Shown here: positions 18,062 through 34,199 of the stretch, piece after piece
How positions within the stretch are numbered: position 1 is the stretch's first letter
How the letters are laid out: every line of letters begins with the position of its first letter
Assembly (NCBI RefSeq): GCF_014892515.1
Contig: NZ_JADBGR010000013.1
Span: forward strand, 1 to 38,778
Length of the DNA stretch: 38,778 nt
Direction: 5' to 3'
Source: Myceligenerans pegani
GTDB lineage: Bacteria > Actinomycetota > Actinomycetes > Actinomycetales > Cellulomonadaceae
The notes under the pieces: generated by a model
Told to the model about the DNA's origin: nothing
Database searches by the model: none
Seen by the model: only the letters and a program-made list of their open reading frames with translations
Program-made: the position numbers and the translations under genes

Positions 18062-19486
18062 ATGTTCAGCAACGCCGAGGAGGCAATCGCCTTCACCCGC
18101 AACGAGGGGGTGGAGTTCGTCGACGTCCGGTTCATCGACCTGCCGGGCGTGACGCAGCACTTCAACATCCCCGTCGCGCAGTTCAACGAGGACGCCTTCA
18201 CCGACGGCCTCATGTTCGACGGTTCGTCGATCCGCGGGTTCCAGGCGATCCACGAGTCCGACATGAAGCTCGTGCCGGACGTGGGCACGGCGTTCGTCGA
18301 CCCGTTCCGCAAGGCCAAGACGCTGGTCATGAACTTCTCGATCGTGGACCCGTTCACGAACGAGCCCTACGCCCGCGACCCGCGCAACATCGCGGCCAAG
18401 GCCGAGGCATACCTGCGCTCCACGGGCATCGCGGACACCGCGTACTTCGGCCCCGAGGCGGAGTTCTACATCTTCGACGACGTGCGGTTCGGGACGTCGC
18501 AGTCCGAGGGCTTCTACCAGATCGACTCCGTGGAGGCCTGGTGGAACACCGGGCGCGACGAGGAGGGCGGCAACCTCGGGTACAAGACCCGCTACAAGGG
18601 CGGCTACTTCCCCACCTCGCCGGGTGACCGCTTCGCCGACATCCGCGACGAGATGGTCCAGACCCTCGGCCAGGTGGGCCTCGCCGTCGAGCGCGCGCAC
18701 CACGAGGTCGGCACGGCCGGTCAGCAGGAGATCAACTACCGGTTCAACACCCTGCTGCACGCCGCCGACGACCTGATGAAGTTCAAGTACGTCATCAAGA
18801 ACGTGGCGTTCCAGAACGGCAAGTCGGCGACGTTCATGCCGAAGCCGATCTTCGGCGACAACGGCTCGGGCATGCACTCGCACCAGTCCCTGTGGCTGGG
18901 CGGCGAGCCGCTGTTCTACGACGAGAAGGGCTACGGCGGCCTGTCCGACACGGCCCGCTGGTACCTGGGCGGCATCCTCAAGCACGCGCCGTCGCTGCTG
19001 GCCTTCACGAACCCCTCGATGAACTCGTACCACCGTCTGGTGCCGGGCTTCGAGGCCCCCGTGAACCTGGTCTACTCGGCTCGTAACCGCTCCGCCTCGA
19101 TCCGGGTCCCGATCACGGGTTCCTCGCCGAAGGCCAAGCGCATCGAGTTCCGCGCGCCGGACCCGTCGTCGAACCCGTACCTGGCGTTCTCCGCGATGCT
19201 GCTCGCGGGCCTGGACGGCATCAAGAACAAGATCGAGCCGCCGGCGCCGGTCGACAAGGACCTGTACGAGCTGCCCCCGGAGGAGCACGCGCTCATCCCG
19301 CAGGTCCCGACGTCGCTCCCCGAGGTGCTCAACTCCCTCGAGGCCGACCACGAGTTCCTCACCGCCGGTGACGTGTTCTCCGAGGACCTCATCTCGACCT
19401 GGATCGACTACAAGCGCGAGAACGAGGTCGACCCGATCCGCCTCCGCCCGCACCCGCACGAGTTCGAGCTGTACTACGACATCTGA
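18062..19486 (+). CDS. glnA: Type I glutamine synthetase
   Basis: Makes glutamine from glutamate, ammonia and ATP as a cytoplasmic dodecamer, the main ammonia-assimilating enzyme. The 474-residue length is typical of GSI-beta. Visible motifs are 'FDGSSIRGF', '[10 protein letters not shown]', '[15 protein letters not shown]', '[12 protein letters not shown]' and 'NRSASIRVP'. Tyr402 in 'DLYELPPE' is the adenylylation site controlled by GlnE. The ATG at 18062 has AAGGAG at 18051-18056; an in-frame GTG at 17993 would run into the regulatory region and is rejected. A GlnR-type box lies upstream. The last 24 bp are duplicated at 34176-34199, so the gene forms the left end of a genomic island and has kept its full reading frame. 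Confidence 0.97.
19463..19486 (+). repeat. attL-like repeat (glnA 3' end)
   Basis: These 24 bp encode the last codons and stop of glnA (…F-E-L-Y-Y-D-I-stop) and recur exactly at 34176-34199. With one mismatch the match extends 4 bp further left. Sequence to the right of the two copies does not match. This is the pattern left by site-specific integration that restores the target gene. Confidence 0.82.
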
Positions 19487-19607
19487 GCCTGATCGGCTAG
19501 ATTCCGGGCTTCACGGCGCCTCCGGGCGCCCGTAGTCCATGAAGAGTCCACGCGAGCCGCGAGCACCTTTTCGGTGGCGGCACGCGTGGACTCTTCCGTG
19601 TCCGGCC
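19474..19607 (-). pseudogene. 3' remnant of a tyrosine integrase gene
   Basis: Bases 19544-19607 match 20730-20793, the 3' end of the other integrase, at 59 of 64 positions and in the same reading frame ('DTEESTRAATEKVLAARVDSS'). Everything upstream of this, including the catalytic domain, is missing. Reading on, the frame stays open for 24 more codons and stops at 19474-19476, inside the attL core. The original integrase gene therefore probably ended across the att site, as in many integrative elements. Only the extreme C-terminus survives. Confidence 0.7.
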
Positions 19608-19615
19608 CGCTTGGC

Positions 19616-19630
19616 TATCCTCACCGCGTG
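19616..19630 (+). promoter_or_regulatory. Candidate leaderless promoter -10
   Basis: TATCCT at 19616-19621, then 6 nt, then the GTG start of the next gene. No Shine-Dalgarno sequence is present. The arrangement is the same as at lipB and hicA. Confidence 0.4.
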
Positions 19631-20275
19631 AACGCGGAGATCGCCCGGCTGGTGCGCCCATGGGGCCCACCGGCGTGGCCGGACATCTGGCGGCCGGTCC
19701 GGGAGACCGGCGTCGGCGACCGCACGACGCTGCTGGACCGCATCCGCACGGTGCTCGATGGCGAACCGGACCTTGTCGAGGCGTGGAACAACTTCTCCGG
19801 TGACAAGCGGTACACCCCGTCGTGGGCGCTGGAAGGGGAGACGGTTTCCTGGGTCATGCCCCGAGGGAGACGCGGGCCGGCCCGGACGTTCGACGACGAG
19901 ACTGAGGCGTGTGCGCAGTTCGTCATGCGTGACGCCCTCTGGAGCGTCGAACGGCGGTTCGTCGACATCGAGGAACCTCGCCGCACCTGGTCGCTGATGC
20001 ACGGCCGAGACTTCTTGGCGCTCCTCACTGTGACCGACCACGACTGGCCGTGGCTCCACGCGAACCTCTCCCCGGCTCCGGCCTTCGACGCCTGGCGATC
20101 CGCGTTCGACGACGAACGCCGCCTCCTGGAGCGCATCGACGACGACGCCGAAGCCTGGGAAGCCGCGTACGACGTCATCAGCAGTGCCCTCACGCTCCGC
20201 GACCCCGAGGGGACCGATGCCGAGATGTTCCTGCTCCATATCGACGGCGACGCGGCCTGGTGGCGATCGGCATGA
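19628..20275 (+). CDS. Hypothetical protein, island cargo
   Basis: A 215-residue soluble protein that I do not recognise. It is rich in Trp and acidic residues, e.g. 'WPDIWRPV' and 'DWPWLHANL', with no signal peptide or membrane segment. The acidic, Trp-rich composition and the pairing with a second small gene resemble immunity or antitoxin-type proteins, but no specific family can be named. The GTG at 19628 is chosen because a TATCCT hexamer lies 6 nt before it; an earlier in-frame start at 19574 would translate part of the integrase remnant. Its stop overlaps the next ATG as ATGA, so the two are coupled. Confidence 0.7.
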   Translation: MNAEIARLVRPWGPPAWPDIWRPVRETGVGDRTTLLDRIRTVLDGEPDLVEAWNNFSGDKRYTPSWALEGETVSWVMPRGRRGPARTFDDETEACAQFVMRDALWSVERRFVDIEEPRRTWSLMHGRDFLALLTVTDHDWPWLHANLSPAPAFDAWRSAFDDERRLLERIDDDAEAWEAAYDVISSALTLRDPEGTDAEMFLLHIDGDAAWWRSA

Positions 20276-20712
20276 CAGAGAGCGCCGCCGCGAACCCCTC
20301 TGCCGAGGAACATGGCAAGCCACTGATCCTGATGGGATATTGGCTCGGCCCGTACGCCCCCGGCTGGCCCGATCCGCGCAACTTCGTCGATCCGTCATGG
20401 GATGTCGACGAGCGCACCCAGATCGTCAACTACCTGGAGCGCGGAATGGCCGTGCGCTACTACATGGGCGAGTCCGAGTGCCGCTTCTGCGGCCAGTTCG
20501 TCGGTTCCGGGGAGTACAGCGACGGCACAGTCGTCTGGCCCGAAGGCCTGGCCCACTACGTCGCCGAGCATGCCGTCCGGCTACCTGCCGCGTTCGTGGA
20601 CCACGCTCGCCGAGCGACCGAGGCACTGGAGAATCGGCCCGTTGACCAGACCTGGTGGGAACAGCAGGTTGGCATCATCGAGTCAACAGACGAGCCTACG
20701 AGCGCTTCCTAG
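20272..20712 (+). CDS. Hypothetical protein with CxxC motif, island cargo
   Basis: A 146-residue protein. The core 'ECRFCGQFVGSGEYSDGTVVWPEGLAHYVAEHAVRLP' (about residues 66-102, quoted in parts: CRFCG, SGEYSDGT, WPEGLAHYV) is a recurrent motif in small actinobacterial hypothetical proteins. One CxxC pair could bind metal. No signal peptide or membrane helix is present. The ATG overlaps the stop of the preceding gene, indicating co-expression. Its 3' end overlaps the convergent truncated integrase by 17 bp. The function is unknown. Confidence 0.7.
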   Translation: MTESAAANPSAEEHGKPLILMGYWLGPYAPGWPDPRNFVDPSWDVDERTQIVNYLERGMAVRYYMGESECRFCGQFVGSGEYSDGTVVWPEGLAHYVAEHAVRLPAAFVDHARRATEALENRPVDQTWWEQQVGIIESTDEPTSAS

Positions 20713-21590
20713 CGCTTGAAGCCCGCGAGGAGTCGACGCGAGCGGCGAGCACCTTCCCGGTGGCGGCACGCGTGGACTCTTCCGTGTCGGGCCACAGGTG
20801 TGCGTACGTGTCGAGCGTCGTCTTCGCGCTCGCGTGGCGGAGGCGTGCCTGGACCACCTTCACGTCCGCGCCCTCCGAGATGAGGAGCGAGGCGTAGTAG
20901 TGCCGGAGGTCGTGGAAGCGGAACTCCTCCGGCAAGCCCTCGATCTCGTTCCCCTCGGCGTCCTTGTACGTCGCCGCCTCTCGTGCTGCCCGGACCGCGC
21001 GCTGGATCTGCCATGGGCCGGTCTGCTCCCCCGCCTCGTCGGCGATGATCCAGGCCGATGCCGGCCGGTCGACTATCGAGCCCGACAGTGCCTCGACGAG
21101 TTCACGCGCTGCCGGGATGGGAGTCTTCGACTCGTCGGTCTTCAAGTCCTCGTCCGGGTACTGGACCGCAGGGTTGATGATCGCCCGCAGGAAGTCGACG
21201 TCGGCGACCCGGAGACCGCAGACCTCGGCGACCCGGAGACCGGAGAACGCCCCGAGGAGGATCGCCGGGCGCAGGTGCTCGGGCATCGCGTCGTGGAGGG
21301 CCCACATCTGGTCCGTGGTCGCGATGAACGCCCGCTGCTTGCCCGCGGGTGGCGCAGTCCGGCGCGAGCACGGATTGCGGGCGAGGATGCCGTCCAGCAC
21401 GGCGTCCGTGAGGATCTGGGACAGCCGCCGGTGCAACGCGTAGACGTAAGACGCCTCGGCGCCACCGTCGGCCAGCGCTCCGGTCCACGCCTTCACGTCC
21501 GACGGCTTCAAGGTCCGCAGCTTCCGGCCGCCGAAGGTCTCCTTGATCTTGGCGACGTGCGTGCGCGCCTGCCGACGGCGCACTGTGGTG
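20696..21590 (-). pseudogene. 5'-truncated tyrosine recombinase/integrase
   Basis: The C-terminal catalytic domain of a phage-type integrase is intact. It has the first Arg in 'GLRVAEVCGLR', a Lys near 'DLKTDESKT', the 'HDLRHYYAS' HxxR box, and 'LRHASAKTTLDTYAHL' with the third His and the Tyr nucleophile. A core-binding domain is recognisable from about 'RRQARTHVAKI' onward. The usual N-terminal arm-binding region of ~60-80 residues is missing: upstream the frame is open but its sequence is unlike any integrase and runs into an opposite-strand gene remnant. I therefore call it truncated and probably inactive on its own. Its 3' end duplicates the remnant beside glnA. Confidence 0.8.
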
Positions 21591-21950: not shown

Positions 21951-24900
21951 CTACATGAACAGACTGGCGAAGCCGTGGGCCAGTCCGGACACGCCGTCCC
22001 ACATGCTGCGTCCCAGGTCGGCCCCAGCTTTGACCACGTCGTCGGCCACCCTGGCACCGGCAGCGATGCCTGACCCGATCCCCATGAAGGCGCCGCCCAA
22101 GCCCGTCATGAGTGCCGAGTTCCAGAACTCGCTGCTGCCGAATCCGTACGCGAACCCGTTCGCAAGGGTGGCACCGACCCCCAGAGCGATCGAAACCACA
22201 CCGCAGAAGGCTCCCATCGCGAGGAGCCCGCCGCCTATGAGAGCCCCGAACCCTGTGTACCAAGACGCTGCGATCACGAGCCCACCCGTCAGCGCGAACG
22301 CGCCGGCGGCCATGCCGTAGAACGCACTCGCCTGGCTCAGGTACTTCGCCAGATCCTTCGCCCGGTCGCCGGACTCCTCCGGCGCAGGCCCGGCGACGAC
22401 ATCTCGACCATCGACTGTCGGATCGTCATCGGCTGGATTGGTCCCCGCCTGGTCGTGCTGCCGTGCCCTGTTCGCTCTCTCGCGGGCCTCCCGGGCCTCC
22501 TCGGCCCGCGCAGCGTCTAGCGCGATCCGATTGGCTGCGCTCGCTGCGTCGGCGGCTGCCCGTGCGTCCTGGTCTGCCTGGAGCGCGGCAGCGCGAGCGT
22601 TCGACGCGGACTCTTGCGCCGCGGTGGCGTAGGTGACCGCCTGGCGTGCAGAGAAGATCGCCTGCTTGGCCGAGTAGTTTGCCGACCTCCTGGCCTCTCG
22701 TGCGACCGCCGCCGCTTCCTCGGCCCTCTGCGCGGACCGCGCGGCGGCTGCCGCCGATGCTTCGGCCGAGTCGGCGAATCCGTCTGCCCGGGACGCGGCC
22801 CGAGACGCATCGGCCCGGTAGGCGTCCGCTTGACGCGCCCACTCTGTCGCTTCGGCAGCGGCACCACGTGCAACTGCTGCGATCTGAGACGCCCGTGCTG
22901 CGTCCTCCAGCGCTGTGGCCGCGATTCCCGCTGCACGTGCGATCGTTGCGCGGATCGCACTCACGTGCGTCGCGTGGTCGTGATCGACCTGCGCGTAGTA
23001 GTACTGGTGGCGCGAGACGAGGTTTCGCCGCATGAGGGCAGAGCCTTCGAGCGTCACCTGCGCTGCAGCGCTCAGGTACTGCCCGCCCGACGCGAGGAAT
23101 CCGGAGACCTCCGCTTCATCGTCTTCCTCGAGCGCTGTCACGAACCCAACCGTGAGGAACTGGTGGAGCGCTTCAGCGGTGCCCTCATCGAGTGCCGCCT
23201 CTGCCGCGGCGCGTACCCCGGGCCGGGGGTCGTCTGCGAGGATGCGCGCCACAACGACTCGGTTGTCCTCGGCCCCTGCGGTGACCGCCCCCGACTCGAT
23301 GAACCTGCGGACCGCGTCTGGTGCATCGCTCTCCAGAGCCGACGCGGCCGCCTCTGCGACCGCCGCGGGAGCGGTCGCAGCGGTGGCGAACGCCATCTCC
23401 CGGTCGTCCTGCTCCTGTGCGAGCAGGCGATCGGCCTCGATCCAGTTGACGACGTCGTACCGAGAACCTGCCAGCGCGAACTCGGCCGCGCTCCTGGTCC
23501 ACCCGCCGTGGGACGTCAGCAGTCTCGTTGCCGCTTCCCGACCAGCCACAACGGCCCGGTCGAACGCCCCGTCCCGCAACGCCGACTCCGCTGCCGTGAT
23601 GAGTGACCGAACCTCATCGGACTGGAGAGCCTCCTGAGTCTGAACCCTTGAGAACCGCAGCAACTGCTCGGACTCTCCCTGAGCCAACTTTCTCGCTTGC
23701 TCGATGGCGGACTCGGTGTCCTCCTGGAGGTGCGCCGTCTCGGCGTCGCGTGCTGCCGCCTCTACCTCCTCGGCTTCGCTGACGGCGCCTGCAGCGGCGT
23801 TGGCCGCATCGACAGCCGCCTGTGCTGCGGCCGTCGAACGGTTCGCGAAGTCGATCGCCTGGCCGGCATGGTCTGCGGCGTCATCCGCCGCGTCAGCCGC
23901 ACGCACCGCATGGTCGGCCGCGCTGTTGGCCGCGTCGCGGGCCACACGCGCCGCGGTCGCCGCCTTGTTGGCCAGCGTCCGAGCCGTGCCCGCCGCCCTC
24001 GTAGCCTTGGCAGCCGCGGCATCGGCCTCCGCCGCAGCGGCGCGGGCTTTGGCTGCCTCGCTCGTCGCGACGCCGGCGGCATCGGCGGCAGCCGCCGCGG
24101 CAGCGGCGGCGACTGCCGCATGATTCGCAGCGCTGGCGGCCGAGGTGCCCGCAACCGCCGCCTGGCTCGCGGCTGTCGCCGCTTGATCCGCGGCCAGGGC
24201 CGCAGTGCGGGCCTTTCCCGCCGCATCCCTCGCTCCGACTGCCGCCGACCGAGCCGCTGCCGCCTGTGAGGCGTCCTGCGAGGCCGCTATCGAGGCACGA
24301 TAGGCCTGAGACGCCGCCTTACCGGCAAAGGCAGCAGCAGTCGCCGCAGACTGTGATGCCACGGCCGCACGCTGCGCCGCAATCCGCGCGGTCCGGGACG
24401 CCGAGATCGCCGTCGATGCCGCTGCCGCCGCACCCTTCGCGGCCTGTGCAGCACCGTTCGCGGCGCGTGCCGACAACGCGACGTCCTCGTTCGCGGCCAG
24501 CGCCTCAGCCTTGGCACGCAACGCAGCCTCCCGCGCCTGCTCAGCGGCTGACACGGCTTGCTGTGAAAGAGTGACCGCCTCCTCCGTCTTCAGACGAGCA
24601 CGCCGCCCCTCCTCTTCAACGATCGTCACAAGCTGATCGATCGTGGCGGACTCCTCATCGCGCGCACGCGCGATGTACTGGCCCGAACCGAGGAACCGAG
24701 TGATCGCTTCGGGCGAACCGTCGTCCAGGGCGCGCTGCGCATAGATGCGCACCTGCGGGGACGCTGTCGTAAGTATCGACGCGACGGCCAAGCGGTCGTC
24801 CTCTTCCTGCGCAGTCCGTTGCCCGTCCTCCAGAAATGCCCGGAGAACCTCGTCGCTGCCGTCCGACAACGCCGCGAGTGCCTCCCGTCGAACAGCCGGT

Positions 24901-25370
24901 CCGCCGTTGCTCATCACAGTTGCCGTCGCGACCCGCAAGTCCTCATGTACCGGGGACCGATACTCGCCCTGGAGATAGGTCGCGATCGCATCGTCCCCAC
25001 CGGCCAGGGCATTTCCGATTGACGCTCGGGTGGCGCTACCCGCGAAAGCCAGGGCTGCGGCGAGCGCGAACTTGTTGTCCTCGGCCCGGAGCACCGGCAG
25101 GTCAGTGCCCACAAACACGGCGACGTCGTCGTCGGTACCCGCCAGAGCTCGCGCAGCCGCGGCGCGGACCGCGCGGCCCTCTGTCTTGAAGGCCCAGACC
25201 GCCTGCCCCCGAATCGTGTCCGGCAGACCGGTGTCCGCAGACATGATTTCAGACCCGAATGCCGTACGTGCCACGAGCGGGTTGCATGTCGGCAGGGATC
25301 CCGCTACCGCCACCCCCGCAAAGACTGTCAGTAGTTGGCGTCTGCCGAGCACAAGCCCATCAGATCGCAT
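21951..25370 (-). CDS. Exported ALF-repeat, Ala-rich coiled-coil protein with hydrophobic C-terminus
   Basis: A 1139-residue protein. The N-terminus 'LGRRQLLTVFAGVAVAG' has twin Arg and a hydrophobic stretch, a possible Tat signal, with Cys29 as a weak lipidation candidate. Residues ~55-245 hold ALF-type repeats (e.g. 'VRREALAALSDGSDEVLRAFL', in two parts here: VRREALAAL, DEVLRAFLEDG). Residues ~250-565 are an extremely Ala-rich helical stalk. A second ALF block spans ~600-775 and a second Ala-rich coil ~800-970. Residues ~1015-1110 are hydrophobic and glycine-zipper-like. ALF repeats are known from actinobacterial polymorphic-toxin-like proteins, but no nuclease or other toxin domain ends this one. 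RBS AAGGGAGGG precedes the ATG. It lies 40 bp after the pseudoprotease gene, in one operon. Confidence 0.82.
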   Translation of the reverse strand: MRSDGLVLGRRQLLTVFAGVAVAGSLPTCNPLVARTAFGSEIMSADTGLPDTIRGQAVWAFKTEGRAVRAAAARALAGTDDDVAVFVGTDLPVLRAEDNKFALAAALAFAGSATRASIGNALAGGDDAIATYLQGEYRSPVHEDLRVATATVMSNGGPAVRREALAALSDGSDEVLRAFLEDGQRTAQEEDDRLAVASILTTASPQVRIYAQRALDDGSPEAITRFLGSGQYIARARDEESATIDQLVTIVEEEGRRARLKTEEAVTLSQQAVSAAEQAREAALRAKAEALAANEDVALSARAANGAAQAAKGAAAAASTAISASRTARIAAQRAAVASQSAATAAAFAGKAASQAYRASIAASQDASQAAAARSAAVGARDAAGKARTAALAADQAATAASQAAVAGTSAASAANHAAVAAAAAAAAADAAGVATSEAAKARAAAAEADAAAAKATRAAGTARTLANKAATAARVARDAANSAADHAVRAADAADDAADHAGQAIDFANRSTAAAQAAVDAANAAAGAVSEAEEVEAAARDAETAHLQEDTESAIEQARKLAQGESEQLLRFSRVQTQEALQSDEVRSLITAAESALRDGAFDRAVVAGREAATRLLTSHGGWTRSAAEFALAGSRYDVVNWIEADRLLAQEQDDREMAFATAATAPAAVAEAAASALESDAPDAVRRFIESGAVTAGAEDNRVVVARILADDPRPGVRAAAEAALDEGTAEALHQFLTVGFVTALEEDDEAEVSGFLASGGQYLSAAAQVTLEGSALMRRNLVSRHQYYYAQVDHDHATHVSAIRATIARAAGIAATALEDAARASQIAAVARGAAAEATEWARQADAYRADASRAASRADGFADSAEASAAAAARSAQRAEEAAAVAREARRSANYSAKQAIFSARQAVTYATAAQESASNARAAALQADQDARAAADAASAANRIALDAARAEEAREARERANRARQHDQAGTNPADDDPTVDGRDVVAGPAPEESGDRAKDLAKYLSQASAFYGMAAGAFALTGGLVIAASWYTGFGALIGGGLLAMGAFCGVVSIALGVGATLANGFAYGFGSSEFWNSALMTGLGGAFMGIGSGIAAGARVADDVVKAGADLGRSMWDGVSGLAHGFASLFM

Positions 25371-25410: not shown

Positions 25411-27699
25411 TCACCGGCTGACCCGGATCTCCACCAGCACGTGCTCTCGCCCGTCGACCGATTCCCCGATGGGACCCCACTCGTTGGGCCCGAATTCGTA
25501 CGCCGTGGTCTCACCCTCCGCAGTCGTCTCCAGCTCCGTCGAGGCATAGTCATTCGTGTGCACCAGATAGGCACCCGGAAGGTTCAACTTCAAATACCCC
25601 TCGACCCCTGTCATTCGGAAACAAACGTCCTGGTTATCCAGCCCGCGGGCGGAAACGCTCAAGACGTTCTCTTCCGCACAATCAGCAAGCAACACGTGGC
25701 CATCACCGGAGATGAGACGAATGCCGCGCTCCTCGAAGATTCCGTCGGCGCCTGGATAGGCGAAGGTCTCCACCGCCGACGTGTCGCCCGCCGGCCGGTT
25801 GACCGCCACCGCGGCATCGCCTCGCTCGCTCGGGCGTCCGAGCACCCAGGCGAGCCGAGACCCGGGACGGTAGGCCACGAGCCCGGTCGTCGAGCCGAGG
25901 TGAGCGTCGTCGTAAGCGATCAGACGGTCACGGGTGTGCGCCATGTTGTACCCGGCGATGCCGCCGCCCTGGTTGGAATAGACCGCAGGCCCGGCCTCCC
26001 CGCTGCCGTCCGCGTGGCGCAGCCAGGGCACCACGGTCACCCACCCCGCCCCTGGCCGGTAGAACACCAAGTGGTCGGCCTTGCCAGAACGGTCGTAGTC
26101 GTAGGCGATCACACGGTCGGCCGTTGAGGTGAGCCTGCCCATCCTGTGCTCGAAGACCTGCTCGTACCCGCCCCCAGTGGTCCGTTCGATGACCCGGTAC
26201 GACGAGCTCACGATGTCCGAGTCGACCAGGCCGGGCCGATAGGCCACGAGGCAGTCCCGGCGGCCGGAGCGGTGGCAGTCGAACGCGATCATCCGATCGC
26301 GCGCGTTTTGCACGTCGAAGCCGGCGATCCCGCCGCCCTGGTTCACGTAGACGTTGGGACCGAGGTGCCCTCCGCCTGCGTCGTCGTCGAGAACCCACGG
26401 GACGATCGTCACCCACCCGGCCCCGGGACGATAGAAGACCACGTGCTGGCCGGTCGCCGAACCCTCGTCGTCCAGCATGATCATCCGGTCGGCCGTCAAG
26501 CTCAGGCGACCCAGCTTCTGACGGTGGATCCGCTGGTACCCGCCGTCCGGGTCGCGCTCGAACACGCTGTAGGACGCGCTCTCGCTGTCCGAATCGACCT
26601 CGCCCGGCCGGTAGACCACGATGCAGTCCTGTTTTCCGGTGCGGTGGCAGTCGAACGCAAGCACCTTGTCATGTGCCCGCCCCAGCAGGACGGTGCCCTG
26701 CGCGGGTACCGGGCCGATGCCGGCGTTGGAGTTGTGGAAGACCCTTTCGTACGAGCCGTCTTCGCGGTGCTTGACGACCCAGTACTTCTTCTCCGGCCCC
26801 GGCCGGTAGATCAGGAGGTGGTCCAGCTTCCCCGTGCCTTCGTAGTCGACGGCGACGATCTGATCGTCGTTGCGGGCGAGGTCGTACCCCGCAATGCCAT
26901 CGAGGTGCCCGTCCCCGTCGCGATCAGCAGATGCGTATGACGCCAGGAACGCGTTCTTGTACCAGACCGCGTTCCGCTCCACCCAGGCCGCCAGGACGTC
27001 TGCCCGAACCACCTGACCTGTCCGGTCGGCGTCGCTCGGAGCCTCGAGGCAGCCGTTCTCGACCGAGCCCACCAGGACGCCGACGACCTCGACGGCACCG
27101 TCGACCGAGCGAGTGACCGGAGCACCCGCATCACCGTCACACGCTGCGGCGGTGGACTCCGCGGGCGCACTCACCTCGAACGAACTGTCGGAGATGCCTC
27201 CCGCAACGAGGCCGGCCACCTGAACTTCGTCCGGCGCCCACACCGTCTCTGTTCGTCCATAGCCACTGAGCGCCAACGACTCGCCGTCCACCACGGATGA
27301 ATCGGTGAGATTCCACGGAACGACGTCAACCCCCAGTGTCAACCTCGCCAGCGCCACGTCGTGGTCCGGGTGCGGCACGATCCGGTCGACATCACGCACA
27401 TACCCGTCCGATGTCGACAGGTCAGCTCGCCCGATGGTTGCCGTCGTGTTCGCCGGCGCCGCGCCGGTACGCACCTCGTCAGAACCATCCGTCGTGAAGC
27501 ACGACGCCGCCGTAAGCACCCACTGTGGCGCGACCAGCGCGCCAGTGCATGCCTTCTCCTCGCCGACGACGACGCGCACGACCTGCCGGACCCAGCTCGG
27601 CTCCACGGTCCCACCACCAGTCACCGCCCCGGCAGGCGACGCCAGGCCCGACAACAAGACCACTGCCGCGACAGACGCAACGCCCAATCGTCTCAACAT
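25411..27699 (-). CDS. Secreted trypsin-fold pseudoprotease with VCBS-like repeats
   Basis: A 762-residue protein: Sec signal peptide (1-25), S1 (trypsin) fold at ~28-242, about six propeller-type repeats at ~277-614, and a C-terminal ~110-residue domain that may be beta-trefoil (AbfB-like, uncertain). The catalytic triad is broken: the His site reads AASC (Ser66) instead of AAHC, and the nucleophile site reads GDAGAP (Ala191) instead of GDSGGP. Asp114 remains. Repeats carry 'DxDxxG...lvxYRPG' signatures, likely Ca2+-binding blades. A DxDxDG loop sits at ~259-265. The ATG at 27699 has a GGAGG site 5 nt upstream; the longer frame lacks one. Likely a binding protein rather than a protease, acting with the ALF protein encoded next. 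Confidence 0.87.
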   Translation of the reverse strand: MLRRLGVASVAAVVLLSGLASPAGAVTGGGTVEPSWVRQVVRVVVGEEKACTGALVAPQWVLTAASCFTTDGSDEVRTGAAPANTTATIGRADLSTSDGYVRDVDRIVPHPDHDVALARLTLGVDVVPWNLTDSSVVDGESLALSGYGRTETVWAPDEVQVAGLVAGGISDSSFEVSAPAESTAAACDGDAGAPVTRSVDGAVEVVGVLVGSVENGCLEAPSDADRTGQVVRADVLAAWVERNAVWYKNAFLASYASADRDGDGHLDGIAGYDLARNDDQIVAVDYEGTGKLDHLLIYRPGPEKKYWVVKHREDGSYERVFHNSNAGIGPVPAQGTVLLGRAHDKVLAFDCHRTGKQDCIVVYRPGEVDSDSESASYSVFERDPDGGYQRIHRQKLGRLSLTADRMIMLDDEGSATGQHVVFYRPGAGWVTIVPWVLDDDAGGGHLGPNVYVNQGGGIAGFDVQNARDRMIAFDCHRSGRRDCLVAYRPGLVDSDIVSSSYRVIERTTGGGYEQVFEHRMGRLTSTADRVIAYDYDRSGKADHLVFYRPGAGWVTVVPWLRHADGSGEAGPAVYSNQGGGIAGYNMAHTRDRLIAYDDAHLGSTTGLVAYRPGSRLAWVLGRPSERGDAAVAVNRPAGDTSAVETFAYPGADGIFEERGIRLISGDGHVLLADCAEENVLSVSARGLDNQDVCFRMTGVEGYLKLNLPGAYLVHTNDYASTELETTAEGETTAYEFGPNEWGPIGESVDGREHVLVEIRVSR

Positions 27700-27928
27700 C
27701 AGATCCTCCGTCCAGTACGCGAAACACGACCGGCCCGGAGGCATGTACGCCCGGGCCCGGAAACGCAAAGCAGAGACCCGATCGCCACGTTCGTGGCCTG
27801 GCCCGGTCTCTCAGGTGCCGTCATAACGCCAGCATGTCAATCCGATGCCTGGACCAACCTCTGCCGAACGGCAGAGGATTCGCTGCGTTCCCGCGATCAA
27901 TCCATCGAAGGCGCAGTATCGGGCCTTG

Positions 27929-28603
27929 TCAGGTGTAATCCGTTGGCTCGGCGATCCCGTGCTCCCAGGCCCAGGCGGCAATTCCGACGCGGTTGTGGAC
28001 CTGGAGTTTCGCGGCGATGTTGGCGACGTGAGTCTTGACCGTGCCCGCGGAGACTGTCAGCTCCTCAGCGATGTCGGCGTTGGTCCGTCCCTGCGCAACC
28101 AAGCGCGCGACCTCGGTCTCGCGAGCGCTCAGCCTTGACGAGCCTGGTCGGGAGACCCAGCCGAGCCTGCCGCGTCCGTGCCGGAGCAGACGAACGGTGA
28201 TCTGTGGGCTGACCAGCATGTCGCCGTTGGCTGCCGCGCGGATCGCCTCGGTGAGCAGTGTCGGACCGGAGCGCTTGAGCAAGAATCCGGATGCACCGAG
28301 CGCCAGGGCAGAGGACACGTACTCGTCGAGGTCGAAGGTCGTGACCACGATGATCCGGCAGTGCGACGTCCGTGGGTCCTTCATCAGCAGACGCGTTGCT
28401 TCAAGACCGTCCAGCTCCGGCATCCGGATATCCATCAGGACCACGTCGGGAATCAGGTGACGCACCGTGTGGAGCGCTGACGGCCCGTCCGCAGCTTCGC
28501 CGACCACACGCATGTCCGGCTGAGAATCGATGAACATCCGGAATGAGCTGCGCACGTCGCGCTGGTCATCCACGACGACCACTCGTGTCTCCGGCACACT
28601 CAC
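27929..28603 (-). CDS. NarL/LuxR-type response regulator
   Basis: A 224-residue two-component regulator. The receiver domain has acidic Asp12-Asp13, phosphoacceptor Asp58 in 'VLMDIRMPE', Thr in 'VVTTFD' and Lys110 in 'FLLKRSG'. The LuxR helix-turn-helix covers ~155-215 ('LSARETEVARLVAQGRTN', then 'VSAGTVKTHV'). It binds DNA when phosphorylated by its kinase. The GTG at 28603 has AGGAGGG 8 nt upstream and overlaps the kinase stop as GTGA. The pseudoprotease gene starts 229 bp downstream on the same strand, which makes that operon the obvious candidate target (inference). Confidence 0.93.
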   Translation of the reverse strand: MSVPETRVVVVDDQRDVRSSFRMFIDSQPDMRVVGEAADGPSALHTVRHLIPDVVLMDIRMPELDGLEATRLLMKDPRTSHCRIIVVTTFDLDEYVSSALALGASGFLLKRSGPTLLTEAIRAAANGDMLVSPQITVRLLRHGRGRLGWVSRPGSSRLSARETEVARLVAQGRTNADIAEELTVSAGTVKTHVANIAAKLQVHNRVGIAAWAWEHGIAEPTDYT

Positions 28604-29829
28604 GATCGAGTCCCTCCTCTGCCCCAGCAGGGTATCGTCGCAGACAGCCGCCACTGACCATTTCCGTCAGGCCCGGCAACCAGACGACCACCAACGGCAG
28701 CGACCCGCTCTCTCAGCGCGGTCAAGCCGGTGCCTCCGTGCGCACGACGCGGCCTTTCCAGCGACAACGCCATGGTGCCGATGTCGTTGAGAACCACGAC
28801 CACGAGATCGCCATCCAACGAGCCGCTCACAGAAACCGTGACCGCGCACCCCGGCGCGGCGTGTCTGCGCACGTTGGTCAGGCCTTCGACCACTACCCGA
28901 TAGACGGTCGCCTGCACTTCCTGAGATGGACCCGTCCGCACGTCGTCGTCGATCTCGACCCGTACAGGTGGGCCATATCCACGCTGCCCGCGAAACCGGT
29001 CCACCAGTGCAGGAACGTCCGAGATTCGCCGCATGGACCGTGGAGCCGCAGCCCCGTCGTCGTGCAGCACCTGGACGAAGCCGTCCATCGCGTCCAGCGC
29101 GCCCACACCCACGTGCTCGATCCGCTCGAGCACCTCACGCATCTGATCGAGGTCGTCGGCCCGTGCGAAACGCACCGCCTGTGCCTGTGCAACGATGCCC
29201 GTGAGGTCATGGGCAACGAAGTCATGCAGGTCCTGAGCCAGTTCCAACCGCTGCTCACGGCGGACCTCGGCGATCAGTTCACGTCGCCGGCGAGCGAGAT
29301 GACGCGGCACACCACCGGTAAGCACTGCGATCGTTGCGGGGAATGCCATCCCGGCGAGATGCCCGAGAATGATGAGCAGGTCGAATCCCGAGGAGATCGG
29401 CCACGGCCCGACGTCGGATGCCACCTGCGGCCAGTACTTGACGAGCCGAAGCACCCACACGACGAACGCGACCCACACCAGCGCCGCCGAAATCACCGCC
29501 ACTCGCAGCGGAGCCGTCCACCGCACGACAGCCGCCAGCAATGCGAAGAGTGCAATCAGCTCGACAGGACCGGGGTGCTTCCCCGGCTCGCCGATCGTCA
29601 CATCGGCAAAGAGCACGTAGGCGGTCGTGGCGAGCGAGATCGAGCCGGCCCCGATGGCAAGAACATGGAGATACGAGCGGCCTGCTCGACCGCCGACGAT
29701 CATCGCAAGCACCGCACCCACGGCAACAGCCGCCGGGACACCGACCGGACCCACACCATTGCCGAGCAACCACGCGCTCACCACAGTCAAGACCGCAAGG
29801 ACGACAAGTAGGGCACGACGGACTGACAC
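28600..29829 (-). CDS. Membrane sensor histidine kinase (HisKA_3 type)
   Basis: A 409-residue kinase. Five or six transmembrane helices fill residues 1-~180 with almost no external domain, so it may sense a membrane signal. The HisKA_3 dimerisation helix has 'LAQDLHDFVAHDL' with phospho-acceptor His202. The ATPase domain shows 'EGLTNVRRHA' (N box) and 'GGTGLTALRERVAAVGG' (G box). The partner is the overlapping response regulator gene. The GTG at 29829 is chosen because translation then enters the first helix directly and a TACGCT hexamer lies 6 nt upstream, as in a leaderless gene. A GTG at 29859 is an alternative. Confidence 0.88.
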   Translation of the reverse strand: MSVRRALLVVLAVLTVVSAWLLGNGVGPVGVPAAVAVGAVLAMIVGGRAGRSYLHVLAIGAGSISLATTAYVLFADVTIGEPGKHPGPVELIALFALLAAVVRWTAPLRVAVISAALVWVAFVVWVLRLVKYWPQVASDVGPWPISSGFDLLIILGHLAGMAFPATIAVLTGGVPRHLARRRRELIAEVRREQRLELAQDLHDFVAHDLTGIVAQAQAVRFARADDLDQMREVLERIEHVGVGALDAMDGFVQVLHDDGAAAPRSMRRISDVPALVDRFRGQRGYGPPVRVEIDDDVRTGPSQEVQATVYRVVVEGLTNVRRHAAPGCAVTVSVSGSLDGDLVVVVLNDIGTMALSLERPRRAHGGTGLTALRERVAAVGGRLVAGPDGNGQWRLSATIPCWGRGGTRS

Positions 29830-29930
29830 GACATCAGCGTAGACGCGACGTGTGGTCACGTTCCCGGATCCGCCGAAGCCGGTAGCGTGACGGGTTCCGC
29901 GCCTGTGCGGACTCGGACCGGAGGCGCCGG

Positions 29931-30743
29931 CTACCCGGTGACGCTGATCTGGTCCCCGTCGACCGACACCGCGACCTCGGGGAGCGGGTCCCGGCTTTCC
30001 GGTGTCAGACCGGACGCGGCCTGCACCACTGACCCGTCCTCGATCGAGTACCGGCTGCCATGGCACGCGCAGTCGATCGTGCCGTCACGCACCGCGCTCA
30101 CGGTGCACCCCTGATGCGTGCAGACGGCCGAGAAGCCTCTGAAGTCGCCTTCGGTCGGCTGCGTGATCACGAGCTGCTGGTCGGCGAGGATCAGTCCACC
30201 GCCGACCGCTACCTCGCCGGTCGAGGCCACGACGTCCGCTCCGGCGCCCGCCTCGCCTTCGGGTGCGCCGTCGCCTGCAGGCGGGTCGGCCGCGGGCGGC
30301 TGCTCGTCGTCGACACCGTAGACCGCACATCCGCTCGCTGCGCTCGCGACACCGGCGGCGCCGAGCACCAGCACGTGCCGCCTCGAAGTGGCTCCCGTCC
30401 TGGGACCGGTCTCCGTCATGAAGAGGGTCCCGGCGGCCGAGTGGACGAGCACACGGGGCGTCGCGGCCTGGAACCCGAGCGCATAGAGACAGTGGACGGC
30501 GACCGGTATGGTCAGGAAGAACGCTGCCCGCCCCGACCAGCGGTGCACCGCGCCGATCCAGCGCGGTGGGTCGGACGGGCCGATCTTGCCGTACATCATC
30601 AGCGCCGACCCCACCTGCACGAGCGCGAGCAGCAGCGCGGCCGACGCGAGCCAGACCTTGGCCTCGAGCGGCCCCGAGAAGCCCGCGACGTTGACAACTT
30701 CGTAGAAATGGCAGAAATGGCTGCGGTACTGGAGACAAACCAC
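29931..30743 (-). CDS. Rieske [2Fe-2S] protein fused to a shortened DUF6529-like membrane domain
   Basis: The 270-residue frame joins two parts. Residues ~17-105 contain about three transmembrane helices and 'GAVHRWSGRAAFFLTIPVAV' and 'VHSAAGTLF', similar to the core of DUF6529-type membrane proteins but shorter at both ends as I recall that family. From Met109 on it is a complete Rieske protein: a Tat lipoprotein-like signal ('SRRHVLVLGAAG' to 'ASGC'), a Pro/Ala/Glu linker, and the cluster ligands CTHQGC and CACHGS. An independent start at Met109 (ATG at 30419) would give a normal 162-residue Rieske protein, so the fusion may be only an open frame left by a deletion. Role: electron transfer at the membrane. 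Confidence 0.75.
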   Translation of the reverse strand: MVCLQYRSHFCHFYEVVNVAGFSGPLEAKVWLASAALLLALVQVGSALMMYGKIGPSDPPRWIGAVHRWSGRAAFFLTIPVAVHCLYALGFQAATPRVLVHSAAGTLFMTETGPRTGATSRRHVLVLGAAGVASAASGCAVYGVDDEQPPAADPPAGDGAPEGEAGAGADVVASTGEVAVGGGLILADQQLVITQPTEGDFRGFSAVCTHQGCTVSAVRDGTIDCACHGSRYSIEDGSVVQAASGLTPESRDPLPEVAVSVDGDQISVTG

Positions 30744-30839: not shown

Positions 30840-30962
30840 GAGTGGGGAAAAGATGCCTGGAGCATCAAGGAGGCATACTGTCGCATCGCCCTGGCGGGCT
30901 CTCGATTAGGGCATTGCACCGCCCTCGCGTGGCCAGGTCATCTGGCGACGACCGCCGCTGTG

Positions 30963-31346
30963 TCACTGCTGCACGAGTTGATTGACGCGTTGGTGTGAGA
31001 CGCCGAGGATCTTGCCCACGTCGCGTTGGGCGATGCCCTTGCCCACGAGCTTCCGTGCGAGTGCTGCGGTCTTGGCCGACGCATCGGCGTCAAGACGCTT
31101 GGCCTCGGCGCGTTCGGCGGCCACGTCTTCCAGGACGTCGCGGACCTTGATGCCGGCGACCGCGTCGATGGAGACGTTCACTGCGACGTCCTCGACGGGG
31201 ACGTCGCGTGTGACGGCGATGAGCTCGCGTGCCATCTGCTCGACGTCAGCGAGGCGCCGGGCCTGGGTGAGGCCGTCGATCTCGGGGACGTGGACCATCC
31301 ACCACCCGTCCTCGCGGGTGACGGTGGCCTGATAGGTGCTGGTCAC
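30963..31346 (-). CDS. hicB: HicB-family antitoxin
   Basis: A 127-residue antitoxin. The N-terminal HicB partial RNase H fold is seen as 'GWWMVHVPEIDGLTQARRL'. The C-terminal helix-turn-helix (~98-127) ends 'ILGVSHQRVNQLVQQ', which should bind the hic promoter. It neutralises the HicA RNase encoded just upstream. The GTG start overlaps the hicA stop as GTGA and is preceded by AGGAGG. Its last 24 bp recur, with one mismatch, at 34376-34399. Confidence 0.88.
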   Translation of the reverse strand: MTSTYQATVTREDGWWMVHVPEIDGLTQARRLADVEQMARELIAVTRDVPVEDVAVNVSIDAVAGIKVRDVLEDVAAERAEAKRLDADASAKTAALARKLVGKGIAQRDVGKILGVSHQRVNQLVQQ

Positions 31347-31549
31347 TTCGTGCCCTCCTGGCTGTCCTTGATGGCCTTGAGAACCTTGCGGTAGACGCCC
31401 GGGCTGATCTGCCGATGTCCGTCCGGAACGGAGACGCTCACGCCGCTCGGATGCTTCCACTGCGTGTGGGAGCCGACCGTCCGGCCCGCCGTGAAACCGG
31501 CGTCGCGCAGTTCCTTAAGGACCTTGCGTGTGGGCTGACTACTGACCAT
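31343..31549 (-). CDS. hicA: HicA-family toxin (mRNA interferase)
   Basis: A 68-residue protein with the HicA dsRBD-like fold. The catalytic His28 sits in the usual 'GSHTQWKHP' context, followed by 'VSVPDGHRQISPGVYRKVLK' (residues ~39-58). HicA cleaves mRNA independently of ribosomes until bound by HicB. hicA comes first and hicB second. There is no Shine-Dalgarno sequence before the ATG; a TAGACT hexamer lies 6 nt upstream, so the message seems leaderless while hicB has a strong ribosome site. That would favour antitoxin translation. Confidence 0.88.
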   Translation of the reverse strand: MVSSQPTRKVLKELRDAGFTAGRTVGSHTQWKHPSGVSVSVPDGHRQISPGVYRKVLKAIKDSQEGTK

Positions 31550-31555
31550 CAGGCT

Positions 31556-31602: not shown

Positions 31603-31951
31603 TGGCCCGGCTGGCTCACTGAGCGAAGCCAAGGATTCCAAGTTCTCGACCCGATCAACGAAGCGGTTGGACACAGCCTCCTGAGAGGTGACTGGCAGGC
31701 CGTTGGTGGCCCAGCTCTGGTAGGCCTGCTGCAGTGGAGCGTGCATTGAAGTTGTCCGTTTCCTCGAGCATGGGCGGTTCTTCTCATGTGGTCGGGAGGA
31801 TTGGTGAGGTCCCGACGTGGTCTTGGGCTCGCCGGCATAGGTCCTGTCCGACAGGTGTGAGCGGACCGACGGCTGGGAGGGTTCCCGTCGGCATGCACGA
31901 TGATGGCTGCGTCGGTGATCGCAGGTGCGTAGTAGGTCGAGTGAGGGCTGG
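31603..31951. other. Non-coding stretch, no gene recognised
   Basis: Short frames exist on both strands, e.g. one of 64 codons reaching minus-strand ATG 31744, but none has convincing codon bias together with a ribosome site or family match. It separates the divergent hicAB and 31952 genes and may contain the upstream gene's promoter. Confidence 0.4.
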
Positions 31952-32674
31952 ATGTCGGACAAGGACGACGATGACGCCAGGTACGTTGATGCCACCGTGC
32001 GACGCATCGCGCGGCTGGCCGAGACGTCACCGAACGAGGCCGAGATCCTCATCGTGGCTTTGCGGGACGCGGGGTACGAAGCGCGTGACGTCGAGGGGGC
32101 GATCGACACTGCCGTCCGATCCGCAGTGGATCGTGTGGCCGGCGAGTGCGACACGGCGCGATCAGTGAGCGCTTCCCAAGAAGGCATTGCGGCAGCCGCG
32201 AAACTTCTGGCCGCGACAGAAGCTCCGCTACGGGTGCTGTTTGCGCTGGGCGGCCGCGACAACACGGTCACTCGGGATGTGTGTGACGAGGTTGCGCGCG
32301 TCGTCGACCGCAGTGTCGCCACCTATGCCAAGTGGCACGATACGGATCTGCGCGGCGGGCCGCTATTGATCCGGGCTCGTGACCTGGCGACGAGTCCGTC
32401 GACCAGGTCGGCCATCGACAAGCACCTGCGCCGGTCTCGTCGCAGAAGCTCGGCAGTGGCGCGTGCGAACCAGCGCCGGGCGCGGCCGCGTCCGCACGCA
32501 CCTCGCCTCAGGACTGTCCGTACCGACCGGTGGTCGGACCGCGCGAGCGGCGGCTATGGCCAGACCGGAGACGTCGGGCGGGTCGCGGTCGTCCTGTACT
32601 GGTTGTTCTGGGTGGTCGCGTGGGGGGTTCCCATCGGTCTGGTGATTCTGCTGGTCCGGTGGCTTGAGGGATGA
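31952..32674 (+). CDS. Hypothetical protein with C-terminal membrane anchor
   Basis: A 240-residue protein, not recognised. Residues 1-~150 are acidic and helical, e.g. 'DDDDARYVDATVRRIARLAE'. Residues ~150-205 are very basic (Arg-rich, 'RRSRRRSSAVARANQRRARP'), which would suit nucleic acid or membrane contact. One transmembrane helix at ~213-237 ends the chain, so most of the protein should face the cytoplasm. The ATG is preceded by GAGGG. It lies ~170 bp before another unknown membrane gene on the same strand. Confidence 0.65.
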   Translation: MSDKDDDDARYVDATVRRIARLAETSPNEAEILIVALRDAGYEARDVEGAIDTAVRSAVDRVAGECDTARSVSASQEGIAAAAKLLAATEAPLRVLFALGGRDNTVTRDVCDEVARVVDRSVATYAKWHDTDLRGGPLLIRARDLATSPSTRSAIDKHLRRSRRRSSAVARANQRRARPRPHAPRLRTVRTDRWSDRASGGYGQTGDVGRVAVVLYWLFWVVAWGVPIGLVILLVRWLEG

Positions 32675-32840
32675 CGCACGTCGCTCCCGTGTTCGTAGTG
32701 CCTTACGCCCGTTCGGATCGACGGTCCGGGTGCTCCGCCGTTCCCGCTTCCACAGTGCTCGGGACCCCTCCCGCCAGTCGGGTGATGAGATGCGGGGACC
32801 CGACGGGTCGTCAGGGTGCATCGACGAGGGGGATGGTGAG

Positions 32841-33788
32841 ATGGACCGCTCCTGGATTGGATTCGCAGCGGCAGTGGCATCGTTCGCGGCTGTGTGGACG
32901 AGCGTCGGCCTTCTCCAGTCGGGCGTCTTCAACATCAAGGAGGCGCGGAATTTCTTCATCGGGCTTGAGCGTGAGAGCTTCCCTCCTGACGATGTCGCCA
33001 TGATCGATGATCTTGGTCGTGAGGGCGTCTGGCAGGTCGTGGGCGGTGTGCTGCTGCTGGTGGTGGCGTTGATCGCGCTTCGCTGGGCACGGTCCGGACT
33101 GGTCGCCGCGGGGGCAGCGCTCGTCCTCGTGTCGCTCGTGGGCGCGTTCGCGATGCTCACCGAGACCTTGCCGGTCGTCTTCATGATCGACTTCGCGCTG
33201 CCTGGTTCGCAGTCCGTGGCGTGGAGCCCGACGACATCGGATACCGAGTTTCTCGCCAGCGGCGTGGGGATCGTTGTCGGAGTAGCACTGGCTGTGGCTG
33301 GCGTCCTGGCGGGGACGAGGCGACCGGCCTCACCGTGGCGGGAGCGGGTCCTCGGTGCGGGTGTCGGGGTCCTTGTCGCTGTCGGAGGGACGCTGTCCCT
33401 GGCGGCAGGCGTCTTGATGAACTATTGGCCGCTGGCGCACATGGAGGAGGTGTGGCCAACGAGCGGGCTGTGGAGCCTTCGCGAGGAAGAGCCGTTCGAA
33501 CCAGGTGGTGCACTGCTCATGCTGCTGGGGGTTGCCCTGGTCGCAGGCGCGCTGTGGAGCGTGCGCTGGACGTCGATCGGGGTCTGGATTGCCGCGGGCC
33601 TCTGGGTGGTGCTTGCCGTCGCCACGTTTACCCCGACCGGAGTGCCAGGGGCAGGCGACAACGTCGTCAGCGGTGGAATCGTGCTTGTCGGTGCCTGGTT
33701 CGGGGTGCTGGCTCTCATCGCGGCCACCCTCGGCCTCGTGACCCACGCTACTCGCATGCACCCGCCCGGTCAGGCCCCGAGCACGTAG
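32841..33788 (+). CDS. Multi-pass membrane protein of unknown function
   Basis: A 315-residue protein with about seven hydrophobic helices. The first is at residues ~5-24; later ones include 'VVGGVLLLVVALIAL', 'GVGIVVGVALAVAGVLAG' and 'GGIVLVGAWFGVLALIAATL'. Two hydrophilic loops lie at ~30-60 and ~205-225. No transporter or enzyme motif is seen. The ATG at 32841 follows GAGGGGGAT at a suitable distance. Last gene before the distal att repeat. Confidence 0.7.
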   Translation: MDRSWIGFAAAVASFAAVWTSVGLLQSGVFNIKEARNFFIGLERESFPPDDVAMIDDLGREGVWQVVGGVLLLVVALIALRWARSGLVAAGAALVLVSLVGAFAMLTETLPVVFMIDFALPGSQSVAWSPTTSDTEFLASGVGIVVGVALAVAGVLAGTRRPASPWRERVLGAGVGVLVAVGGTLSLAAGVLMNYWPLAHMEEVWPTSGLWSLREEEPFEPGGALLMLLGVALVAGALWSVRWTSIGVWIAAGLWVVLAVATFTPTGVPGAGDNVVSGGIVLVGAWFGVLALIAATLGLVTHATRMHPPGQAPST

Positions 33789-34175
33789 TCCGGCCGGCCC
33801 TTGACCGACCAGCGGGCAGTGCCGCGACAATCTGCGCCTGCCACAGCGAGCACGCTTGTCGGAGGTGGTCGAGCCGGACCGCCATCGACCCCTTTTGCGG
33901 GTGGATTTCAACCTAGCGGGACAACCTCCAGGACGCGCCGAGGGTGACAGGTAGATCGTTCGACGGGACAACTTGGTGACAACCACACCGGTCCAGGTGA
34001 CACCTTCGATGGATCCCTACAGCTGTCCGACGGCAAGACCGCACCCGACGCGAGTCCAGGAAAAGTCCACAAGATGTCCAGCGCCAGCCCGATCCGACCG
34101 GCGCTGGCCAACGCAGAAACCGCGAGATTCCAACGATCCCAACGTGGCCAGCACCGGCCGTCCTCCAGGTCCGAC
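33789..34175. other. Non-coding right end of the island
   Basis: 387 bp without a convincing gene between the last island gene and the distal att repeat. It contains the cluster of short GG[G/T]GACA-like repeats listed separately. Confidence 0.45.
33918..34004 (+). repeat. Cluster of short GACA-containing repeats near attR
   Basis: Five related copies of GG(G/T)(G)ACA(A)C type occur at 33918-33926, 33942-33950, 33965-33973, 33975-33984 and 33996-34004, all in the same orientation and ~170-260 bp from the att repeat. They might be integrase arm-type sites, but this is a guess from placement. Confidence 0.35.
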
Positions 34176-34199
34176 TTCGAGCTGTACTACGACATCTGA
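34176..34199 (+). repeat. attR-like repeat (copy of the glnA 3' end)
   Basis: An exact copy of 19463-19486, including the glnA stop codon, with no glnA coding sequence in front. It marks the distal end of the island. A strong terminator-like hairpin follows 36 bp later. Confidence 0.82.

Follow-up and report, generated by a model that had tools for sequence, protein, structure and literature searches.

Bacterial attachment sites (attB) of integrative elements are typically tRNA or tmRNA genes or intergenic sequences, many protein-coding genes are also used, and islands often reconstitute the gene they enter (PMC12884075). Among the actinomycete integrative and conjugative elements (AICEs), those with a tyrosine integrase were reported mostly in tRNA genes (PMC3218068); a further account gives 36 tRNA, 14 protein-coding and one intergenic AICE site, and describes accretion and decay of elements at one site (PMC9513070). 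The stretch analyzed here, hereafter the window, comprises 38,778 nucleotides of Myceligenerans pegani (contig NZ_JADBGR010000013.1). Downstream of the glutamine synthetase gene glnA it contains a 14.7-kb segment that is very probably a decayed integrative element, acquired by tyrosine-integrase recombination at the glnA 3' end. Paired att cores, empty sites in related genomes, an integrase remnant, pairs of arm-type sites and relatives located at the same site elsewhere lead to this reading. The segment is assigned to an actinobacterial element family predicted to use the glnA end as its site and to rebuild the gene end. Like other gene-rebuilding integrative elements, it has a tyrosine integrase beside the target, a core that is the gene end, and a target frame that is kept; unlike those presented in PMC12884075, its target is glnA and it also sets a hairpin where the native one stood. 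Coordinates are collected in Table 1.

The exact repeat of the glnA end, stop codon included, which the first-pass annotation had reported 14.7 kb apart, was confirmed in both copies of the 24-mer TTCGAGCTGTACTACGACATCTGA. When extended, the repeat reached 28 bp with one mismatch (19459-19486 / 34172-34199). A scan of the complete M. pegani assembly (5.87 Mb, 111 contigs) tolerating up to three mismatches returned these two exact places and one place with three mismatches, and the reversed pattern gave no match in the same scan. Nine distinct 24-mers are repeated in the whole window, so that an exact repeat of this length is not unique as such, and a repeated integrase tail (family D2) likewise yields long exact matches; the glnA-end pair is set apart by its position and flanks. 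The stretch ending in the second core was 92% identical over 147 bp to the same place in the element of Promicromonospora sp. AC04 (genome G122), and 89% identical over 149 bp to that of genome G116. The idea that the second core is a duplicated fragment of glnA or of a paralogue was rejected, this arm being common to the relatives' elements. The segment thus lies between direct repeats, with one copy at the target gene, as in tyrosine-integrase elements. The C-terminus of the glnA product is the same in the same-genus genomes, and its frame is intact. The integrase remnant previously described as touching the left copy is real but falls into two pieces, a C-terminal relic beside attL and a larger, truncated integrase 1.2 kb further on.

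Three other genomes of the genus were compared (G001, G002 and G003), and two of them, G001 and G003, displayed the empty site: glnA is followed directly by sequence aligning to the window from 34172/34200 on (BLAST identities of 73% over 128 bp and 77% over 123 bp, respectively). Along a 115-bp alignment to the flank past attR, identity amounted to 67% for G003 and 63% for G001, compared with a mean of 52% and a maximum of 59% for 200 shuffles of the window stretch against G003; the post-glnA sequences of G001 and G003 are 74% identical to each other. The window's own 115 bp after glnA were 96.5% identical to a relic in G002 and only ~53% to the empty sites. This third genome has a related left-end relic, composed of an integrase-tail relic and parts of ORF1 and ORF2 (ORF, open reading frame), followed by different genes and then by the window's flank from 34700; it yielded no second att copy at up to two mismatches and no integrase match at E 1e-40. 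When the genus was searched for the cargo (40 candidates scored per genome), matches of at least 90% over more than 50 bp were limited to the DUF6529/Rieske genes in G003, where they are two separate genes (L125, 6785-7845) located ~0.2 Mb from glnA. The ALF-protein region was 65-66% identical to G003 over 2.4-2.7 kb, and the remaining matches were shorter. A gene content downstream of glnA common to all close relatives is rejected by this comparison. It is very improbable that the region from glnA to 34200 is ordinary variable chromosomal DNA in which the second glnA end is an unrelated duplicated fragment. The genus does vary downstream of glnA, where G002 and G003 have other genes in common, and the DUF6529/Rieske cargo is 91-96% identical to its G003 counterparts elsewhere in the chromosome; the integrase remnant, the arm with its arm sites at the second copy, the empty sites and the recurrence of the repeat-plus-integrase arrangement in other genera nevertheless contradict this view.

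The core of the window integrase (20696-21559, minus strand) was used as a query. Among 200 genomes of the family, it gave 12 matches outside its own genome at E 1e-40 or better, all located at the glnA end. Further matches numbered 14 at E 1e-45 among 396 genomes of the order (13 at the glnA end) and three at E 1e-35 among 396 genomes of the phylum, two of which (G935 and G919, from other orders of the same class) were at glnA. Altogether, 27 of 29 integrase relatives in other genomes were found at the glnA 3' end. The integrase of G802 (39% identity) adjoins a tRNA-Cys gene and not glnA. In the draft genome G346 (~290 contigs), the core TACTACGACATCTGA adjoins the integrase and has non-glnA sequence on its other side (L118, G346:C16, around 679), as would be expected for attP in a free circle or for a tandem junction. 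A scan of named genomes returned 13 loci. Five were already in the set (Promicromonospora sp. AC04, Cellulosimicrobium funkei [G128], Demequina sp. SYSU T00192 [G424], Demequina flava [G321] and Pengzhenrongella frigida [G048]), four were new at glnA (Cellulomonas humilata, Sanguibacter gelidistatuariae, Actinotalea sp. and an uncultured Cellulomonas), and four were not at glnA, namely Promicromonospora soli (L075), where an att-like fragment is present, and three from Clostridia or Lachnospiraceae at 24-28% identity. Phage records contained only integrases of ~32% identity (three records, E up to 1e-20) and plasmid records gave no integrase match. Of 25 loci measured, 23 have the integrase stop codon -4 to +67 nt from that of glnA; it lies farther away in G333 (+172) and G048 (+384). 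The earlier proposal of the glnA 3' end as attB, with an intact coding sequence, was thus borne out by empty sites, kin in other genera, att repeats and arm sites.

The 32 distinct glnA loci (13 from the family, including the window, 13 from the order, two from the phylum and four named) were inspected for att sites. A second copy of the host's own glnA end was present downstream in 16 of them, 2.6-25.3 kb away and at 8-15 kb in 12 cases; repeat-scan scores of these copies were 18-31, versus 10-15 for the best other matches, and the att copies track each host's own glnA codons. G128, whose second core copy lies on another contig, was left out of these 16. A 24-bp pair in G084 was rejected as a further island: its second copy begins with base 4 of a contig and has the same sequence after it as the first copy, which probably reflects an assembly edge. 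Stop codons differ between attL and attR in G360 and G122, and the attL/attR mismatches of G116 lie upstream of TACTACGACATCT. From these differences, we infer a crossover within about TACTACGACATCT (13 bp), by which the element would donate the stop codon of glnA.

The 16 complete islands were searched for the putative arm-type motif AGTCCR. On the integrase side, a direct pair 11 bp apart was found in 14 islands, at +47/+58 or +48/+59 and, in G274, at +36/+47; G919 has one of the two sites. On the attR side, such a pair occurs in 13 of the 16, starting between -156 and -145, and single sites were found in G173 and C. humilata. Background density in the island interiors was 0.09-0.44 sites per 200 bp. 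This paired layout, complete in the window on both sides of the core, is that expected for the attP of a tyrosine integrase, as judged by motif and position.

Scanning viral contigs with the integrase of a relative revealed 18 loci. L138, a viral-metagenome contig of 16,414 bp, has identical ends of 127 bp and is therefore probably circular. Its attP is complete, the core with the glnA end lying between a left and a right arm, and besides the integrase the contig encodes an FtsK-like protein, a major head protein and a tape-measure-like protein. Integration at glnA was seen for L134 and L137, and an attP-like junction for L139; the start of L136 recurs near its end. Contig L141 (IMG/VR, 15101 bp, likewise with 127-bp identical ends) displays the arm motif AGTCCGCA and no recognizable glnA core; it is probably circular and may encode an integrase relative with a different target.

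A maximum likelihood tree was built from 47 rows, leaving out loci without an integrase frame or with a false one and the short G116. The 30 glnA-labeled rows (G346 by virtue of its core), two rows without an assigned target and L136 formed one clade (support 100/99), outside which fell the tRNA-Cys integrase, two phage integrases and the other viral integrases. The window integrase was inside this 33-row clade and paired with that of G122 (100/100). The glnA label needed four changes on the tree, at least three of them forced by well-supported branches. Given the rows without a target and L136 within the clade, a single origin of glnA-type integrases is likely, not proven.

Several observations weigh against integration by this family at glnA. 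No second att copy was seen in 16 of the 32 loci, in the DNA examined, where some contigs end early. G437 had no AGTCCR arm sites at the expected places on either side, and the core of L136, inside the integrase clade, is not recognizably glnA. In addition, the window integrase has lost its N-terminus relative to G122 and is not a complete enzyme that could support mobility today, so that its past activity is deduced from G122.

A stable hairpin separates the glnA stop codon from the first island gene, and a hairpin matching the one beyond attR directly follows glnA in the empty sites G001 and G003. On balance, the element hairpin appears to take over the terminator step at glnA, a reading to which we lean and which is based on the equivalence of the two hairpins together with their position, stability and conservation. 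Of the features of an intrinsic terminator, the stable hairpin after the upstream stop is present and the T-run directly after the stem is missing. Actinobacterial terminators often have no T-run. The first-pass annotation had placed the island directly under a nitrogen-controlled gene. This finds no support in view of the hairpin: direct control by glnA is unlikely if the hairpin terminates, an objection that, owing to the missing T-run, is a matter of likelihood and not a disproof.

The best 56-nt hairpin within 140 nt after the glnA stop was compared with 1040 background windows of the same loci for 26 of the 32 loci (G024, G198, G560, Sanguibacter, Actinotalea and the uncultured Cellulomonas were left out). 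It was at or below the 5th percentile in all 26 occupied loci, and at or below the 1st in 19; in most cases it falls inside the 3' coding end of the element's integrase gene. The regions after attR were at or below the 5th percentile in 13 of 14 cases, C. humilata being the exception. The last 45 integrase codons were subjected to 100 synonymous-codon shuffles. From the 31 loci given, G024, G560, C. humilata, Sanguibacter and Actinotalea (no integrase frame) and the uncultured Cellulomonas (false frame) were dropped, leaving 25; the window, which has relics only, is not among them. The observed hairpin stability was reached by at most three shuffles in 20 of the 25 integrase ends, and likewise in the viral clade members L134, L135, L137, L138 and L140 (L135 and L140 being without an assigned target). 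In the outside group L141-L151, counts ranged from 3 to 90, with one of 11 at 3 and none lower; L136 gave 74, and the controls G802 and corynephage 304L gave 23 and 100, respectively.

Conservation of the stem was examined in an alignment of 23 sequences. G437 was excluded as short, G919 because its C-terminus differs and G333 because it has no motif; the uncultured Cellulomonas was also excluded, as was G360, which is identical to G542. Pairing in the 17-bp stem holds in 91.6% of cells, and its covariation score is 0.283, versus 0.118 (sd 0.015) when shuffled and at most 0.090 when slid; the structure was drawn from the window's own copy, which gives it an advantage over the slid controls.

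These data raise the tentative possibility, which we rate slightly short of an even chance, that the clade is specialized on the glnA end and was selected to encode a substitute glnA terminator in its C-terminal codons, as a dual-coding tail; the missing T-run brought our estimate down slightly from even. A number of results speak against the terminator and dual-coding readings. A T-run is absent from both hairpins of the window, the element's and the native one, and scanning for classical terminators returned nothing at either. Equally stable hairpins exist among the 40 local windows of G128 (four), G298 (three), G122 and G050 (one each), and in no other locus. Integrase ends exceeding three shuffles were those of G231 (5), G313 (7), G048 (19), G333 (83) and G437 (94), to which G346 (41) and the viral member L139 (21) can be added within the clade. 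Outside it, the integrase-end hairpin of Rhodococcus phage Sleepyhead (L132) was reached by none of 100 shuffles, so such hairpins are not confined to the glnA clade. Finally, the arm-site motif and the outer stem share bases in the window, as they do in many relatives. Given Sleepyhead, hairpins at integrase gene ends may be more widespread.

This overlap could mean that the post-glnA hairpin consists of inverted integrase arm-binding sites that happen to fold and has no terminator role, which we regard as unlikely. AGTCCR does occur in the outer stem of the window and many relatives in direct (+58) and inverted (+100) orientation, with direct repeats on both arms, and no T-run follows the stem. 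The native hairpin lacks one as well, so that this absence cannot separate the two readings. In G143, G161 and G173, however, arm pair and hairpin are separate: the pair (+48/+59) precedes a stem starting at ~+83, there is no inverted AGTCCR, and stem energies are still -43 to -48 kcal/mol. Inner columns outside the motif also covary, columns 19, 22 and 23 having changed on both sides in 11, 8 and 3 of the 23 sequences, respectively, a point weakened by column 25, which is unpaired in 10 of 23. Furthermore, where the integrase end is not unusually folded, the hairpin after glnA is derived from other sequence, intergenic in G437 and G333 and an integrase-tail relic in G048.

Table 1. Features of the glnA-associated segment and its borders in the window
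Feature	Position	Strand	Basis or remark
glnA, glutamine synthetase, 474 aa	18062..19486	+	Frame intact, C-terminus FELYYDI-stop; name from sequence recognition and kin
attL core, 24 bp	19463..19486	+	glnA 3' end including stop, attachment site
Element right end with relic of integrase C-terminus (PDTEESTRAATEKVLAARVDSS)	19487..19607	-	Common to G002
Two putative arm-type sites AGTCCA, 11 bp apart (P' arm)	19534..19550	+	AGTCCR search
Element hairpin	19541..19596	+	-42 kcal/mol; pair of 20-nt arms with 95% complementarity; after the glnA stop, ahead of the first island gene
ORF1, protein without family match	19628..20275	+	Pfam, PHROGs, NCBIfam; parts conserved in G002
ORF2, protein without family match	20272..20712	+	Pfam, PHROGs, NCBIfam
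Tyrosine integrase remnant, catalytic domain kept	20696..21573	-	89% identical to G122
Cargo: 1139-aa ALF-repeat protein	21951..25370	-	PF03752
Cargo: trypsin-like protein with repeats (D1)	25411..27768	-	PF00089
Cargo: LuxR-type response regulator	27929-28654	-	Pfam
Cargo: sensor histidine kinase	28600-30066	-	Pfam; two-component pair with the response regulator
DUF6529 and Rieske parts fused in one frame, stretch between missing	29931..30743	-	Pfam
HicB-like antitoxin family protein	30963..31460	-	phrog_8245
ORF without family match	31925-32674	+	Pfam, PHROGs, NCBIfam
ORF without family match, membrane segments by eye	32664-33788	+	PHROGs, NCBIfam only
Left arm (P arm)	34051..34175	+	AGTCCA at 34053 and 34064; arm with core 92% identical to G122 arm
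attR core, second copy of glnA end	34176..34199	+	Exact repeat
Displaced native hairpin	34234..34289	+	-46.3 kcal/mol; beyond attR

The 14.7-kb island of the first-pass annotation holds as an integrated segment but not as one intact element: besides decayed cargo, it contains a truncated integrase and a pair of integrase tails. Compared with G122, the integrase has lost ~86 N-terminal residues and its native C-terminal tail. Together with the two tails and the left relic of G002, these losses suggest a composite of two stacked related elements fused by deletion. That ORF1-ORF2, as a 1.1-kb insertion, split the integrase gene of a single element is rather improbable. Aligned with G122, the window does resemble one integrase in which 74 bp are duplicated around ORF1-ORF2; yet the 74-bp copies are identical at 65 of 74 positions, about as far from each other as from G122 (66/74 and 63/74), G002 has the first relic and parts of ORF1-ORF2 with no integrase match at E 1e-40, and in G048 the integrase-tail relic at glnA has a second integrase after it, the one ending at +384.

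Scans of the window proteins (10 by Pfam, seven by PHROGs and 10 by NCBIfam) recognized no transfer genes, TraB-type translocase or Rep protein, and no phage structural genes, nor any terminase, primase or related phage gene, capsid genes included; the window has no tRNA. The 3' end of the HicB-like gene (30962-30989) recurs beyond attR at 34375-34402 with 93% identity over 28 bp, as if a fragment of a second HicB-like gene lay in the flank. Elsewhere in the same genome (L126, G000:C100:92000-111900), stretches 8211-8385 and 11104-11188 are 80-81% identical to island positions 31685-31861 and 33938-34021, and perhaps belong to a related element at another site.

Among the relatives, a subset of the predicted genes was assigned (30 larger ORFs by Pfam and 10 by PHROGs, those of L138 included). 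Phage portal proteins were found in G143 and G274, a terminase in G274, capsid proteins in G173, G542 and G298, tail proteins in G360 and G446 and a tail-like protein in G122. AAA_25 was present in G542 and G274, and DUF3987 in G298. G122 has a TrwC relaxase, G437 a primase-like protein and G919 a D5-type protein. This varied cargo indicates that one integrase clade serves several kinds of element. Capsid-forming phage-inducible chromosomal islands (PICIs) are the satellites for comparison. With capsid, portal, terminase, tail, AAA, DUF3987 or primase genes in ~8-15 kb, the relatives resemble, in gene content, the actinobacterial phage satellites and prophage-like elements presented in PMC10023795; unlike in satellites, these genes were not found in the window segment. 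The segment resembles AICEs in being actinobacterial and having a tyrosine integrase, and differs from pSAM2-like AICEs in its glnA target and in that TraB and Rep were not recognized among the scanned proteins; G122 has a TrwC-type relaxase and L138 an FtsK-like protein. The G122 element is the closest relative found, with the same site and arms, and has its att copies 25.3 kb apart; unlike the window copy, its integrase frame is open throughout (387 aa).

According to the mechanism proposed here, the final glnA codons, as attB, would recombine with an attP in which these codons and the stop are also present. With a crossover within about TACTACGACATCT, the element would supply the final bases and the stop, and glnA would be rebuilt. 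The native hairpin would be displaced by 14.7 kb and replaced, probably as terminator, by the one in the 3' coding end of the element's integrase gene, and ribosomes on the integrase transcript may prevent that hairpin from terminating there. In M. pegani, the element would then have decayed, probably after stacking and deletion fusion, leaving cargo without self-mobility.

The literature searched, which did not extend to supplements, provided no paper describing glnA as an integration site, and island databases may list it. The term glnA was absent from the main texts of PMC12884075, PMC12424338, PMC3218068, PMC8190616, PMC9513070, PMC10023795 and PMC10690885. The match of PMC8270828 to glnA or glutamine synthetase was confined to its reference list, and an IS2404 element mentioned within glnA3 of M. 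ulcerans (PMC2600814) is not an integration site of the present kind.

The glnA end would thus be added to the integration sites, together with an integrase clade, the anatomy of its attP and a probable free circular form, and the attB/integrase pair may be of use in actinobacteria that are poorly tractable. The question of how gene-end elements spare the transcript of a key housekeeping gene also becomes testable. The answer here may be a replacement stop signal inside the integrase gene. If the dual-coding tail is real, glnA transcripts, untranslated there, would be stopped, integrase transcripts would perhaps be kept open by ribosomes, and insertion would be harmless for the relaxase-bearing, phage-like and cargo elements that have this integrase.

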